A DNA stretch of 64,000 nucleotides, from contig VGVZ01000009.1 in the NCBI GenBank assembly GCA_016873805.1, forward strand, positions 1-64,000, read 5' to 3'. Source of the DNA: Ignavibacteria bacterium. GTDB lineage: Bacteria; Bacteroidota; Ignavibacteria; UBA10030. The translations under genes were made by a program, and so were the position numbers. The notes under the pieces were generated by a model. That model had not been told where the DNA came from. It saw only the letters and a program-made list of their open reading frames with translations, and ran no database searches. Positions 11,009 through 15,487 of this stretch are shown here, piece by piece; within the stretch, counting starts at the first letter, position 1, and each line of letters starts with the position of its first letter.

Positions 11009-11659
11009 CTACTTCTTTGTTCCTGCGGCAAGAAATATGGTCACCTTCGCCGTTTCGCCTCCGCATTCGGAGGACGCGCAGCACGTTTCCTCTGCCGATG
11101 TGACGGAAATATCGATGAGACCCGCCTCCGCAAACCAACGACGGATATCGTCGCGCTTGAAACCCATCCATCGATCATGCTGCTCGGTGCGGAGGAATTC
11201 AAACGTGTGTTCGTCCAAATCGCTGAGGACAACGCGTCCCCCCGGTTTCACGATGCGTGCCATTTCCCGAATGGCGTCAGGGGGAGACTCCACATGGTGG
11301 AGAAACATGTTCGCAAGCGCGGCATCGACGGAAGAATCAGCGACGGGAAGAGAGCGATCTTCGCCGACCCGGCAATCGATGGATCCGCGGTCCCCGACTC
11401 GCGTGCGCAACGCAAGCAGCATTTTTTCCGATTGATCGACAGCAATAACATGATGCCCCCGCGTCAGAAGTTCTTCCGTGATGAATCCTGAGCCAGCGCC
11501 AATATCGGCCACGCTCGCGCCGGGTGAAAGAGATGCCGCATCGACCGCCTTCTTCCCGAGGTTCTCAGAGAAGAAACCCGATCGGATCGAATCCCATCGA
11601 TCCGAAATCCGATCAAAGTACTCTTTGCTATTCAGCCTATCTTGTCGATCTGGTCGCAT
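11009..11659 (-). CDS. class I SAM-dependent methyltransferase
   Basis: A 216-residue Rossmann methyltransferase. Motif I is VADIGAGSGFITEELL near residue 50, motif II VIAVDQSEKML, and the post-motif region ANMFLHHVESP resembles small-molecule methyltransferases. The C-terminus holds CCASSECGG, a Cys cluster. The start overlaps the end of arsM by 28 bases, implying translational coupling and a related role, perhaps with thiol-reactive metalloids or their methylated products. The substrate is unknown. Confidence 0.8.
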   Translation of the reverse strand: MRPDRQDRLNSKEYFDRISDRWDSIRSGFFSENLGKKAVDAASLSPGASVADIGAGSGFITEELLTRGHHVIAVDQSEKMLLALRTRVGDRGSIDCRVGEDRSLPVADSSVDAALANMFLHHVESPPDAIREMARIVKPGGRVVLSDLDEHTFEFLRTEQHDRWMGFKRDDIRRWFAEAGLIDISVTSAEETCCASSECGGETAKVTIFLAAGTKK

Positions 11660-12450
11660 TCACGTGGTATCCTTGCCGTTAGAGTCGCAGATGCAACAAG
11701 GTCGCGTACCTTCACTCCCGGTTCCCACTCCGCAATGGCATCGATGGTCTCTGCTTTCGGGAGAATCATGATATCCACAAACCCTGCGTCTTTCATCATC
11801 ATGACGAGTCGCTCAATTGTCTCCGCTCCGCCAACGCACGCTGAGACCCAACGATCATCCTCCTTAATCTCCTGGGGAAGCTCGATGCACGCGATGATAT
11901 CTTCGATCGCCAATCGTCCCCCTGGTTTCAGCACACGCGACACCTCATGAAAGACCTGCTGTTTGTCAGGGGAGAGATTGATGACGCAATTTGAAATGAC
12001 GACATCAACTGATTTGTCGGGAATGGGAAGTCTCTCCATCTCGCCAAGAAGAAATTCGACGTTCTTGACAGAATTCTTGGAGGCGAGTGCCCTTGCCCGT
12101 GAAATCATCCGAGGAGTGAAATCAACACCGATGACGCGTCCTTCCGGTCCAACCTGCCGAGCGGCGAGGAAACAATCAAAGCCGGCGCCGCTCCCGAGAT
12201 CGAGAACAACTTCTCCTTCTTGAAGTTGAGCGCTTTGAATGGGATTTCCGCAGCCCAGGCCGAGATTGGAACCATTGGGAGCGGAAATCACCTCCTCGTT
12301 GGAGTACCATTGCGGAGTTTTCGAAGCCGCGGGGGAGCAGCACGCTTCCTGCACCGTCGGGTCGGGCCCGCCGGCGGAACAGCATCCGGTCGATCCGGAT
12401 TGTACGATCCGCCCATAGTGATCTTGGATGTGTTGCTTTCGCTGATTCAT
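11632..12450 (-). CDS. arsM: arsenite S-adenosylmethionine methyltransferase
   Basis: Methylates As(III) to methyl and dimethyl arsenicals. All three arsenic-binding cysteines of the family are visible: Cys67 in GLGCGNP, Cys154 in NCVINLSPDK and Cys204 in ACVGGAET. SAM motif I is VLDLGSGAGFDC. Two extra CC pairs near the N-terminus (residues 23-24 and 37-38) resemble the N-terminal cysteines of longer ArsM proteins. It lies in an operon with an ECF sigma factor, trpF and a second methyltransferase. No arsR or ars transporter is nearby. Confidence 0.93.
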   Translation of the reverse strand: MNQRKQHIQDHYGRIVQSGSTGCCSAGGPDPTVQEACCSPAASKTPQWYSNEEVISAPNGSNLGLGCGNPIQSAQLQEGEVVLDLGSGAGFDCFLAARQVGPEGRVIGVDFTPRMISRARALASKNSVKNVEFLLGEMERLPIPDKSVDVVISNCVINLSPDKQQVFHEVSRVLKPGGRLAIEDIIACIELPQEIKEDDRWVSACVGGAETIERLVMMMKDAGFVDIMILPKAETIDAIAEWEPGVKVRDLVASATLTARIPRECDQIDKIG

Positions 12451-12534
12451 ATTCCGCGCTCCGATGAATGGGGTTCACTTCCATAGACGGCGCGGGTGGA
12501 AAAAAGACGCAACGGCGAGAACTCTCCAAATTGT

Positions 12535-13197
12535 CTAGCCGGTCGCATTCTGGATGAATCGCCTCACCTTATCTTTGTCGAGTTGGCCGTTGGTCCGGAC
12601 GCCGCTACAAACGTCGACGGCAAACGGTGCGACCTGCTCAATCGCGCTGCGGACATTCTCAGGATTCAATCCGCCGGCAAGGAAAACAGGGATCTTGACG
12701 GCCGCTCGGATGGAGCGGCTGATGTTCCAGTCATGTGTTCGTCCTGTTCCCCCGAGCATCTTAATCTGAGCTTTTGGATTCCCCGAATCAAGCAAGAGCG
12801 CATCGACAAATCGAGAGACCTCCACCGCTTCGTGAATTGATTGCCCGCCTGCCACGTGGATCACCTGGACCAGCGATATCCCCGGGAGCTCCGCACGCAA
12901 GGTCTTGTACGTGTCGAGGGACACCGAGTCGACTAACTGCAGGGTATTCACGCAGAAGGTCCGTTGTTGGCGGACGATCTCGGCGGCCTCCTGGCTGCTT
13001 GTAAGGAGGAATGTCGCGACGCCAGGAGGAATGGCGGACGCAATCGTACGAATCGCATCATTGGTGATGACACCCGGACCGCTGGGCATCTTCGACACGA
13101 GTCCCAGCGCGGATGCACCGCTGGTGATCGCGATCTGAGCCTCCTCGATACTCTGGATACAGCAGATCTTGATTCTCACGCGCGGCCAGGCGCTCAT
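12535..13197 (-). CDS. trpF: phosphoribosylanthranilate isomerase, atypical subtype
   Basis: TIM-barrel enzyme of tryptophan synthesis (PRA to CdRP). The catalytic Cys12 in IKICC and the Asp of DALLLDSGN are present, as are the phosphate-binding AGGLNPENV and DVCSGV loops. The usual SPR motif after beta-2 is replaced by KMPSGPGVI, and the Gly after the catalytic Cys is Cys. The start overlaps the sigma factor stop by four bases (ATGA). It stands in the transcript that begins with the trp attenuator, two genes after trpB2, which supports a real trp role. Confidence 0.85.
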   Translation of the reverse strand: MSAWPRVRIKICCIQSIEEAQIAITSGASALGLVSKMPSGPGVITNDAIRTIASAIPPGVATFLLTSSQEAAEIVRQQRTFCVNTLQLVDSVSLDTYKTLRAELPGISLVQVIHVAGGQSIHEAVEVSRFVDALLLDSGNPKAQIKMLGGTGRTHDWNISRSIRAAVKIPVFLAGGLNPENVRSAIEQVAPFAVDVCSGVRTNGQLDKDKVRRFIQNATG

Positions 13198-13811
13198 GAT
13201 TGCTTACTCCGATGACAGCAACAACACGAGACTGGATGGTAATCGATCACGGCGCCAAACCGGTCGAACTCGAAATGACAACAACGATTGAGCATATCGC
13301 GGAGGTGTGCACGTCCCCGCTGTACACGCGATTTGGCGCCGGAGAGGGAGAGACCGAGTCGTGATGCCAGTTCCTTCTGACTGATCCCCTCAAACTCGAC
13401 AAGGAGAATCGCTTCTCGGTACGGTTCGGGGAGATGATCCACCATTTCACGCAGGCCGGATGCAAGTCTGGATCCCGGCGCTTCCTCATCCACTGAGTCG
13501 GGGAGATCCTCTCGATCACCTATCGGGGAGAACGGCTTCTTGCTTCGATAGAAATCGACAATGGCATTGCGCGTGATTTGATAGACCCAGCTCTCCAGCC
13601 GCGTTTCATCCTCGAGTGTCTCCAGTTTCGCATGGATCTTGAGGAAGACATCCTGCAGGATATCGTCGACGTCAGCCGCATCTGAGACCCGACCGGCAAT
13701 AAATCGGTGCAATTGGTTGCTGAGGCGAGAGTAGATCGCGCCGAACGCATCGTCGTTATTCGAAATGCTCACAGCATACACTCCGGCTGGATATTTTTTT
13801 AAGCTATTCAT
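13194..13811 (-). CDS. SigZ-like ECF RNA polymerase sigma factor
   Basis: A 205-residue ECF sigma. Region 2 spans about 20-92 (DILQDVFLKIH, then LESWVYQITRNAIVDFYR) and region 4 about 123-175 (LPEPYREAILLVEFEGISQK, then LSLSGAKSRVQRGR). A Cys-rich tail follows: CC at 177-178, then EFDRFGAVIDY, then CCCC at 196-199. This tail layout recalls SigZ-type sigma factors (from memory). No anti-sigma gene is adjacent, so the cysteines may sense thiol stress or metal directly. It sits 46 bases after trpB2 and overlaps trpF by four bases. Confidence 0.88.
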   Translation of the reverse strand: MNSLKKYPAGVYAVSISNNDDAFGAIYSRLSNQLHRFIAGRVSDAADVDDILQDVFLKIHAKLETLEDETRLESWVYQITRNAIVDFYRSKKPFSPIGDREDLPDSVDEEAPGSRLASGLREMVDHLPEPYREAILLVEFEGISQKELASRLGLSLSGAKSRVQRGRAHLRDMLNRCCHFEFDRFGAVIDYHPVSCCCCHRSKQS

Positions 13812-13857
13812 TTTCTCTGAGAATCCCAAGACCGGGCTCGCCGGTGGAGCGGTCTCT

Positions 13858-15222
13858 CTATGCCGGAACAGGAAGTGCTTTCAGCGTTTTGAGCGATGCC
13901 TCGATGCTCTCCTGTGACAGCCCATGATCCGTGAGCCTGCCTCCAAAATAGTCGTCGTATGCCTGCATATCGAAGTGGCCGTGGCCGCTGAGGTTGAACA
14001 GAATGACGGGCGGCTTTCCGTTTTTGTCGCCGTGCTGTGCCTCATGGATGGCGGAACGAATTGCGTGGGCCGACTCTGGAGCCGGAACGATCCCTTCGGT
14101 CCTGGCAAATTCTTTCGCCGCATCAAATACCTCGATCTGTTTGTACGCCTGCGCTTCGATAATCTGATCCTTCACGAGTTGACTGACCAGGGGGGCCGCT
14201 CCATGGTACCGGAGCCCGCCGGCGTGAATCGAGGCCGGGACAAAGTTGTGGCCGAGCGTGTACATCGGCATCAGCGGAGTGAGTTCGCCTGTATCTCCGA
14301 AGTCGTATGAATATGTCCCGCGAGTCAGCGTAGGACACGATGCCGGCTCGACCGCAATTGATCGGTGCGGCGTGCCGTTCAGCTTGTCCTGGAGAAACGG
14401 AAACGCGAGGCCGGCGTAATTCGATCCTCCGCCGCACGACCCAATGACGATATCAGGATATTCACCTGCTTTCTCCATCTGCTTCTTTGCTTCGAGTCCG
14501 ATGACAGTTTGGTGGAGGAGAACATGATTGAGCACACTCCCCAGCGAGTATTTTGTGTCGTCCCGCTGTGCGGCATCTTCGATTGCTTCGCTGATCGCGA
14601 TGCCGAGACTTCCCGGATGATTCGGATTGGTTTTCAGAATCTTTCGCCCGGACTCGGTTTGTGAGCTTGGACTCGCCGTCACCGTTGCGCCGAAGGTTTG
14701 CATAAGTGCTCTCCGATACGGCTTCTGCTGGAAGCTGACACTCACCATGTAGACCTTGCATTCGAGGCCGTAAAAGCTGCATGCCATGCTCAGTGCGCTC
14801 CCCCACTGACCTGCGCCGGTTTCTGTCGTCAATCTCTTCACTCCCTCTTGAGCGTTGAAGGATGCCTGTGCCAGGGCAGTGTTGAGCTTGTGGCTTCCGG
14901 CCGGACTGGCTCCCTCATACTTGTAGAAGATCTTTGCCTTGGTCCCGAGGCGTTGTTCGAATCGGCGCGCATGGAAGAGAGGCGTTGGACGGAAGAGCTG
15001 ATACATCGCCCGGACTTCATCCGGAATTTTTATGAACCTCTCGCGACTCACTTCTTGTAGAATCAGTCCCATCGGAAAGATCGGCTGGAGATCTTGCGGG
15101 CCGATTGGCTTCCGCGTCCCCGGATGGAGCGGGGGGGGAGGATGGTTCCGAAGATCCGCCTGGATGTTGTAGTAGTGAGTCGGGATTTCGTCCTCGGTGA
15201 GCAGGAACTTGACTGGTGACAT
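13858..15222 (-). CDS. trpB: tryptophan synthase beta-like, TrpB2 type
   Basis: PLP enzyme condensing indole and serine to tryptophan. The PLP Lys is in [16 protein letters not shown] and the phosphate cup is [11 protein letters not shown]. The extended N-terminus ([16 protein letters not shown] preceded by about 80 residues) and the 454-residue length place it in the TrpB2 group, which usually acts without TrpA contact. GAGGAGAAG precedes ATG 15222. It is the first structural gene after the trp leader and attenuator. No trpA is in the window. Confidence 0.93.
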
Positions 15223-15320
15223 GGTACTTCTCCTCTGATTGGTTGATGAGAAAGAATGTGGAGCCATCGAGATGTCCCACAATTTCTATTTCGTCAACCA
15301 CAGGGAAGAAGTAAGAGAAA

Positions 15321-15357
15321 CAAAAAAGGTGGGAACACACGGGGCATTCCCACCTTT
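15321..15357 (-). terminator. trp attenuator terminator hairpin
   Basis: On the minus strand AAAGGTGGGAA (15357-15347) pairs perfectly with TTCCCACCTTT (15335-15325) across an 11-base loop, followed by a run of T (15327-15322). This intrinsic terminator lies between the leader peptide and trpB2. The preceding segment CCCCCCT, at the end of the leader reading frame, can pair with AGGTGGG of the terminator's 5' arm with one mismatch, forming the antiterminator. The GGCGC at 15409-15405, just after the Trp codons, can pair with GCGCC at 15392-15388 as the 1:2 hairpin. Confidence 0.85.
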
Positions 15358-15377
15358 GCGTGAAGATCGGACAGCAA

Positions 15378-15449
15378 TCAGCAGGGGGGCGCCTTCGGTT
15401 CGATGCGCCACCACCAGTTGATCGTTGCATATGATGTGCGGGTATTCAT
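15378..15449 (-). CDS. trpL: trp leader peptide with three consecutive Trp codons
   Basis: A 23-residue reading frame begins MNTRTSYATIN, continues with WWW (codons 12-14, bases 15416-15408) and ends at TGA 15380-15378. It stops 21 bases before the terminator stem and is followed by trpB2. Three adjacent UGG codons are the hallmark of ribosome-mediated trp attenuation: stalling at them frees segment 2 to make the antiterminator. No Shine-Dalgarno is evident, and the candidate promoter would leave only a few bases of 5' untranslated RNA, so initiation may be near-leaderless. Confidence 0.85.
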   Translation of the reverse strand: MNTRTSYATINWWWRIEPKAPPC

Positions 15450-15458
15450 ACCGGGATG

Positions 15459-15487
15459 AAACTACTCTTTTTTGTTTGACCTGTCAA
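15459..15487 (-). promoter_or_regulatory. candidate promoter of the trp operon
   Basis: Minus strand TTGACA (15482-15487), 17 bases, TAGTTT (15459-15464). The -35 is perfect, the -10 moderate. Transcription would start only a few bases before the leader ATG. Confidence 0.5.

Follow-up and report, generated by a model that had tools for sequence, protein, structure and literature searches.

A tryptophan-codon leader element predicted to attenuate transcription of trpB2 in an Ignavibacteria bacterium and its relatives

The trpB2 locus and its leader element

We analyzed positions 1-64,000 of contig VGVZ01000009.1 of the Ignavibacteria assembly GCA_016873805.1 (hereafter, the window); the element described here is read on the minus strand (Table 1). 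At positions 11632-15222 of this strand, genes for TrpB2, a SigZ-like sigma factor, a phosphoribosylanthranilate isomerase (PRAI)-like protein and an arsenite methyltransferase-like protein are arranged head to tail with short gaps. The canonical trpB model scores far below its cut-off on this TrpB2 (158 vs 392 bits). Co-transcription of sigZ with trpB2 is possible; a sigma factor within a unit subject to Trp attenuation would be unusual.

Upstream of trpB2, positions 15487-15321 contain, in this order, a sigma70-type promoter, a 23-codon leader, segments capable of forming the 1:2, 2:3 and 3:4 helices, and an intrinsic terminator. The 23-codon frame with three adjacent Trp codons and the GGCGC/GCGCC 1:2 hairpin that had been proposed in the first-pass annotation are both there, the hairpin in the sequence as well as in the minimum free energy (MFE) fold. 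The terminator, originally described as an 11-bp stem with a T-run, is real but longer, with 14 contiguous pairs (6 GC) and a T-tract (1 observed vs 0.3 expected). The proposed antiterminator, CCCCCCT/AGGTGGG, is present as well and is extended by GGCG/TGCC to an interrupted helix of ~10 bp; it is weaker than in the relatives and, taken alone at this locus, pairs no better than composition shuffles of the C-rich sequence (p 0.39), yet the pairing is present. The fold of the whole leader at this locus beats 199 of 200 dinucleotide shuffles (z -2.63). The terminator starts 20 nt past the leader stop codon, and the trpB2 start follows ~100 nt further on. All the named parts fall within the boundaries initially assigned to the element, 15321-15487, but the conserved unit extends further downstream because the stretch between the terminator and the trpB2 start (15326-15217) is structured, too (z -3.42 at this locus).

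Table 1. Features of the trpB2 locus and its leader element (positions in the window)
Feature	Position	Strand	Basis or remarks
-35 box TTGACA	15482..15487	-	Sequence; TTGACA-17-TATACT-like promoters kept in relatives
-10 box TAGTTT	15459..15464	-	17-nt spacer from the -35 box; leader ATG 9 nt on
Leader peptide ORF MNTRTSYATINWWWRIEPKAPPC*, 23 codons	15378..15449	-	ATG 15449, TGA 15378; Trp codons kept in family members
Three adjacent TGG codons, predicted stall site, also within segment 1	15408..15416	-	Sequence; alignment A2
Segment 1 GGTGGTGGCGC	15405..15415	-	MFE fold; 1:2 pairing across 22 genomes
Segment 2 GGCGCCCCCCT, partner of 1 or 3	15383..15393	-	Duplex test and covariation
Segment 3 AAAGGTGGGAATGC, terminator 5' arm or antiterminator partner	15344..15357	-	Terminator search and covariation
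Segment 4 GTGTTCCCACCTTT plus U-tract (intrinsic terminator)	15322..15338	-	Terminator search; 3:4 double changes
Segment 5 TTGTGGGACATC, complementary to segment 4	15271..15282	-	ATCGTGGGAACCTCC in relatives; p 0.076 at this locus
Post-terminator hairpin burying the trpB2 Shine-Dalgarno AGGAG (15234-15230)	15225..15313	-	z -3.42; anti-SD p 0.037
trpB2 (TIGR01415, NF009057), predicted target gene	13858..15222	-	TIGR01415 643 bits vs cut-off 519
SigZ-like sigma factor	13194..13829	-	28-nt gap after trpB2
Divergent PRAI-like gene, overlapping sigZ	12535..13197	-	Under NCBIfam cut-offs

No Shine-Dalgarno (SD) sequence was found upstream of the leader ATG, and a transcript beginning the usual number of nucleotides past the promoter would leave no room for one. 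At most of the loci, the ATG lies 6-11 nt downstream of the -10 hexamer, leaving 0-4 nt of 5' untranslated RNA under the assumption of the usual start site. Given the conservation of this spacing, near-leaderless initiation, which had already been suggested for the window, appears to be conserved in the relatives, and since no SD sequence precedes the leader, its translation would depend on this mode of initiation.

Conservation of the element and covariation of its helices

We searched for relatives of TrpB2 and scanned the respective upstream regions for leaders containing three consecutive Trp codons (WWW leaders). Many loci of Bacteroidota and of other FCB bacteria have such a leader upstream of trpB2; few trpB2 loci of Actinobacteria, Chloroflexi, Firmicutes or Proteobacteria have one (candidates L074 and L077), and in some genera of the order the scan detected no recognizable leader before trpB2 (e.g. 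L099, L100, L102 and L103). When 98 genomes of the order were searched with a covariance model built from 17 loci, 22 strong hits were obtained, of which 20 are located directly 5' of trpB2 and two (G012 and G030) at contig ends, with trpB2 found at the end of another contig. The E-value is 2e-14 in the window and as low as 4e-22 in relatives. Weak hits (L189, L190, L192, L193 and L194) are possibly chance terminators. In the family to which the genome belongs, the element is present in all 16 genomes that encode this trpB2 ortholog (14 linked, 2 across contig breaks), the two unlinked cases being counted because both the element and trpB2 are at contig ends; it was also identified in genomes that belong to a different family (f14) within the class. 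At most loci, the leader stop codon precedes the terminator by ~18-24 nt. Independent loss of the Trp codons or of the stems in relatives, which would have spoken against an attenuator, was looked for, and no such loss was seen within the family.

Because plain MAFFT (alignment A1) put the terminator arm of some genera in the wrong place, the 1:2, 2:3 and 3:4 helices were analyzed on a 22-sequence covariance-model alignment (A2), whose fitting used 1:2 and 3:4 and left 2:3 out. On A2, 80.4% of the 2:3 cells are paired and 8 of the 15 pairs show double changes; for example, pair 27-90 is CG in 13 sequences, GC in 8 and UA in 1. The comparison of trpB2 upstream regions that had been proposed as a check yields covariation of the antiterminator (30 cells vs 10.1 in shuffled alignments, the score being reached in 0 of 500 shuffles), and when the helix is slid along the alignment, pairing drops to 37-47%. 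In the 3:4 terminator, 6 of the 14 pairs have changed on both sides. The 1:2 helix, with 95.5% of the cells paired, contains no such pair because the Trp codons (UGG) fix one side. In an independent duplex test, 2:3 pairing exceeds the shuffle means at 25 of 26 loci and the means of cross-lineage swaps at 24 of 26, the genomes of one lineage being correlated in these comparisons. The antiterminator, weak when the locus in the window is taken alone, is mutually exclusive with the terminator. This anatomy, conservation and covariation agree with the original proposal of classical trp attenuation upstream of trpB2 in an FCB bacterium.

Very probably, the locus is a classical ribosome-mediated transcription attenuator that would respond to charged tRNA-Trp and induce TrpB2-dependent salvage. 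Under the mechanism that we infer from the arrangement of the segments, transcription would begin almost at the leader ATG, so that the ribosome would load at once and trail RNA polymerase. With charged tRNA-Trp abundant, the ribosome would reach the stop codon and occlude segment 2, and the 3:4 terminator would halt transcription ahead of trpB2. When tRNA-Trp is uncharged, the ribosome would stall at the Trp codons over segment 1, leaving segment 2 to pair with segment 3, and polymerase would read on into trpB2 and possibly into sigZ and the PRAI-like gene.

The region between the terminator and trpB2

A further segment complementary to segment 4 (segment 5, ATCGTGGGAACCTCC) is common to the relatives, usually 15-30 nt past the terminator. 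Compared with dinucleotide shuffles, 4:5 complementarity is in excess over 33 loci (Fisher 3e-16; 15 loci with p<=0.05), although related genomes are not independent in this test; when each genus contributes one pessimistic value, the combined probability is ~1e-8. Covariation of 4:5 on alignment A3 is modest, with pairing at 88.6%, double changes in 7 cells and a score that 1 of 500 shuffles attained. In several relatives, segment 5 opens a second terminator-like hairpin (5:6), and in G036 (L186) the first hairpin lacks a T-run that the 5:6 hairpin has. At some loci, segment 5 is complementary to the ribosome-binding site of trpB2. Complementarity between the post-terminator region and the SD sequence reaches p<=0.05 at 10 of 28 leader-bearing loci compared with 0 of 49 leaderless control trpB2 genes.

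Two accounts of this region have to be weighed, each of which includes the classical attenuator. One, which we consider a serious possibility although short of probable, extends it to a relay of six segments, in which 4:5, formed when 2:3 forms, would block the 5:6 hairpin or terminator, or else the masking of the SD sequence. With 4:5 set by 2:3, a single stall would govern the second checkpoint as well. The conservation of segment 5 downstream of the terminator, the excess and covariation of 4:5, the 5:6 hairpins, including the one that alone bears the T-run in G036, and the SD complementarity confined to leader-bearing loci argue for this extension, and relief of a second checkpoint by 4:5 would make sense of the tandem terminators. 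It is countered by equilibrium folding, in which freeing segment 4 does not expose the SD sequence (mean unpaired 0.246 vs 0.236), by the weakness of the locus in the window, where 4:5 has a p of 0.076 and 5:6 lacks a T-run, and by the possibility that segment 5 is a duplicate of segment 3 that has no switching role.

The same folding result, namely a hairpin that is folded irrespective of whether segment 4 is free, fits the other account, along with the strength of the SD-masking hairpin at this locus (z -3.42). Here the classical attenuator would be accompanied by an independent SD-masking hairpin that sets translation or senses something else. This arrangement is conceivable but somewhat doubtful, since the complementarity between segments 4 and 5, conserved together with the attenuator, would require another explanation.

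The same scaffold, combined with a Phe/Tyr leader such as MSMFKRYYLYYYPWARDSALSLR, was found no more than ~300 nt 5' of the DAHP synthase gene in three genomes (L187, L188 and L191 in G033, G052 and G006, respectively) and is a probable aromatic amino acid attenuator; these loci also carry the segment 5 motif. Only tentatively, the relay may be generalized to a family of attenuators in Ignavibacteria-like Bacteroidota, in which stalling at Trp codons (or Phe/Tyr codons, in the case of DAHP synthase) in a near-leaderless sensor ORF would choose between an off state, 1:2-3:4-5:6, and an on state, 2:3-4:5, with control over a first terminator and, after it, over a second one or the ribosome site of the gene.

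TrpB2, the tryptophan pathway and known attenuators

In the draft genome that contains the window (99.1% complete), no trpA, trpC or trpE was detected, and neither trpD nor canonical trpB was found above the cut-off; the controls of these searches were positive in 14 of 14 genomes each time (for trpB, 13 above the cut-off). The genome retains TrpB2 and PRAI-like genes, two of each. The PRAI-like genes are divergent (12535-13197 and G000:C5:69001-69582) and are accompanied by no other recognizable enzyme of the trp pathway; a similar gene stands alongside canonical trpF in many relatives whose trp pathway is complete. On contig C36 (L130:3-2833), the second TrpB2 gene, 48% identical to the first, lies immediately downstream of a tryptophanase-subfamily gene; an apparent in-frame TGA in this copy was rejected, the alignment having merely run beyond the stop codon.

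Likewise, trpA, trpC and trpE were not found in G012, G052 and G033 (99-100% complete). A different context is seen in G001 and G003, where trpB2 heads a cluster and is directly followed by trpE and the remaining trp genes (trpE...A). Six other genomes (G007, G024, G026, G028, G036 and G132) have a separate trpE operon with its own, different WWW leader; in these, the leader of trpB2 would therefore regulate independently. At the trpE operons of six relatives (L211, L212, L213, L215, L217 and L221), the separate WWW leader is followed by an unrelated, AACCCTTCC-type terminator.

Given that trpE, trpD, trpC, trpA and canonical trpB are not recognizable in the genome under study, the switch would control an orphan TrpB2. 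PMC11085991, citing Hiyama 2014, reports participation of TrpB2 in indole salvage. Conversion of indole to tryptophan is probably the role of the orphan enzyme as well; with tryptophan as its most likely product from indole in this genome, the switch would induce salvage under Trp starvation.

The undetected remainder of the trp pathway, together with the 2:3 and 4:5 helices that are weaker here than in the relatives, might also suggest a decaying relic, that is, an attenuator inherited after the loss of the trp operon and having little present function. However, the promoter, the Trp codons, the position of the leader stop, the 14-bp terminator and TrpB2 itself are all intact, and near-complete genomes with no detectable trpA or trpE (G052, G033, G056 and, across a contig break, G012) have kept the WWW leader before trpB2, so we regard a relic as highly unlikely. 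A chance Trp-rich frame adjoining an ordinary intergenic terminator, favored by nothing other than the fact that short Trp-rich frames can occur randomly, is refuted by the conservation and the 2:3 covariation in 22 genomes and has practically no probability left.

Attenuation in response to Trp is known in Proteobacteria. The first-pass annotation described the ribosome-stalling type as best known from this group and pointed to an apparent FCB bacterium and a TrpB2-type gene as its setting here; outside Proteobacteria, however, trp attenuation has already been reported in Actinobacteria (PMC1262725) and Bacteroidetes, in the latter as the Bacteroid-trp motif (RF01692; PMC2864571) and a Trp leader in Flavobacterium (PMC6414381). 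With Bacteroidetes trp attenuation already described, the present element is a variant rather than a new kind of regulator. An Rfam scan of the window detected no trp leader family at the gathering threshold, and neither RF01692 nor the other Rfam trp leaders gave a covariance-model match at E<=1 to this locus or to any of 14 related loci.

Like the Escherichia coli trp attenuator with its TrpL peptide (Rfam Trp_leader), the element combines Trp codons in a short ORF, alternative 1:2, 2:3 and 3:4 helices, a U-tract terminator and a downstream trp gene; unlike it, the ORF is apparently near-leaderless, the target is trpB2 rather than the trp operon, segment 5 is added and no Rfam model matches. 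Leader-peptide trp attenuation in Bacteroidetes is shared with Bacteroid-trp, which, however, does not match by model and was described before the trp operon, not before trpB2. Actinobacterial attenuators, including that of Corynebacterium diphtheriae trpB2A (PMC1262725), similarly have tandem UGG codons in leaders outside Proteobacteria, but in C. diphtheriae trpB2 shares an operon with trpA, whereas the present TrpB2 belongs to the COG1350/TIGR01415 type and trpA is not detectable in its genome. Two terminators in series within one leader are also found in the rimP-leader (PMC2965389), which, in contrast to the present element, is not an amino acid leader-peptide system. In the open-access literature, we found no paper linking TrpB2 of this type to attenuation. 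At the sequence level, the element displays the testable features of a textbook attenuator and would work like one; it is a distinct family acting on a different gene.

The role of stand-alone TrpB2, including the reason why some genomes keep only trpB2, has been a standing question, according to the portion of PMC1854888 concerned with this gene. As described there, Pyrococcus horikoshii has likewise kept trpB2 alone after losing all other trp genes, with its selective function unassigned; that portion reports no leader for P. horikoshii trpB2, whereas the regulation by Trp codons predicted here points to Trp synthesis. A conserved Trp-codon switch before an orphan trpB2 indicates that selection ties the enzyme to the charging of tRNA-Trp, and therefore its cellular product is most likely tryptophan. 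The relay, if true, would add an extra stage to the textbook mechanism. The element places a deeply conserved attenuator family, with an apparently near-leaderless sensor, in a lineage of Bacteroidota that has received little study.
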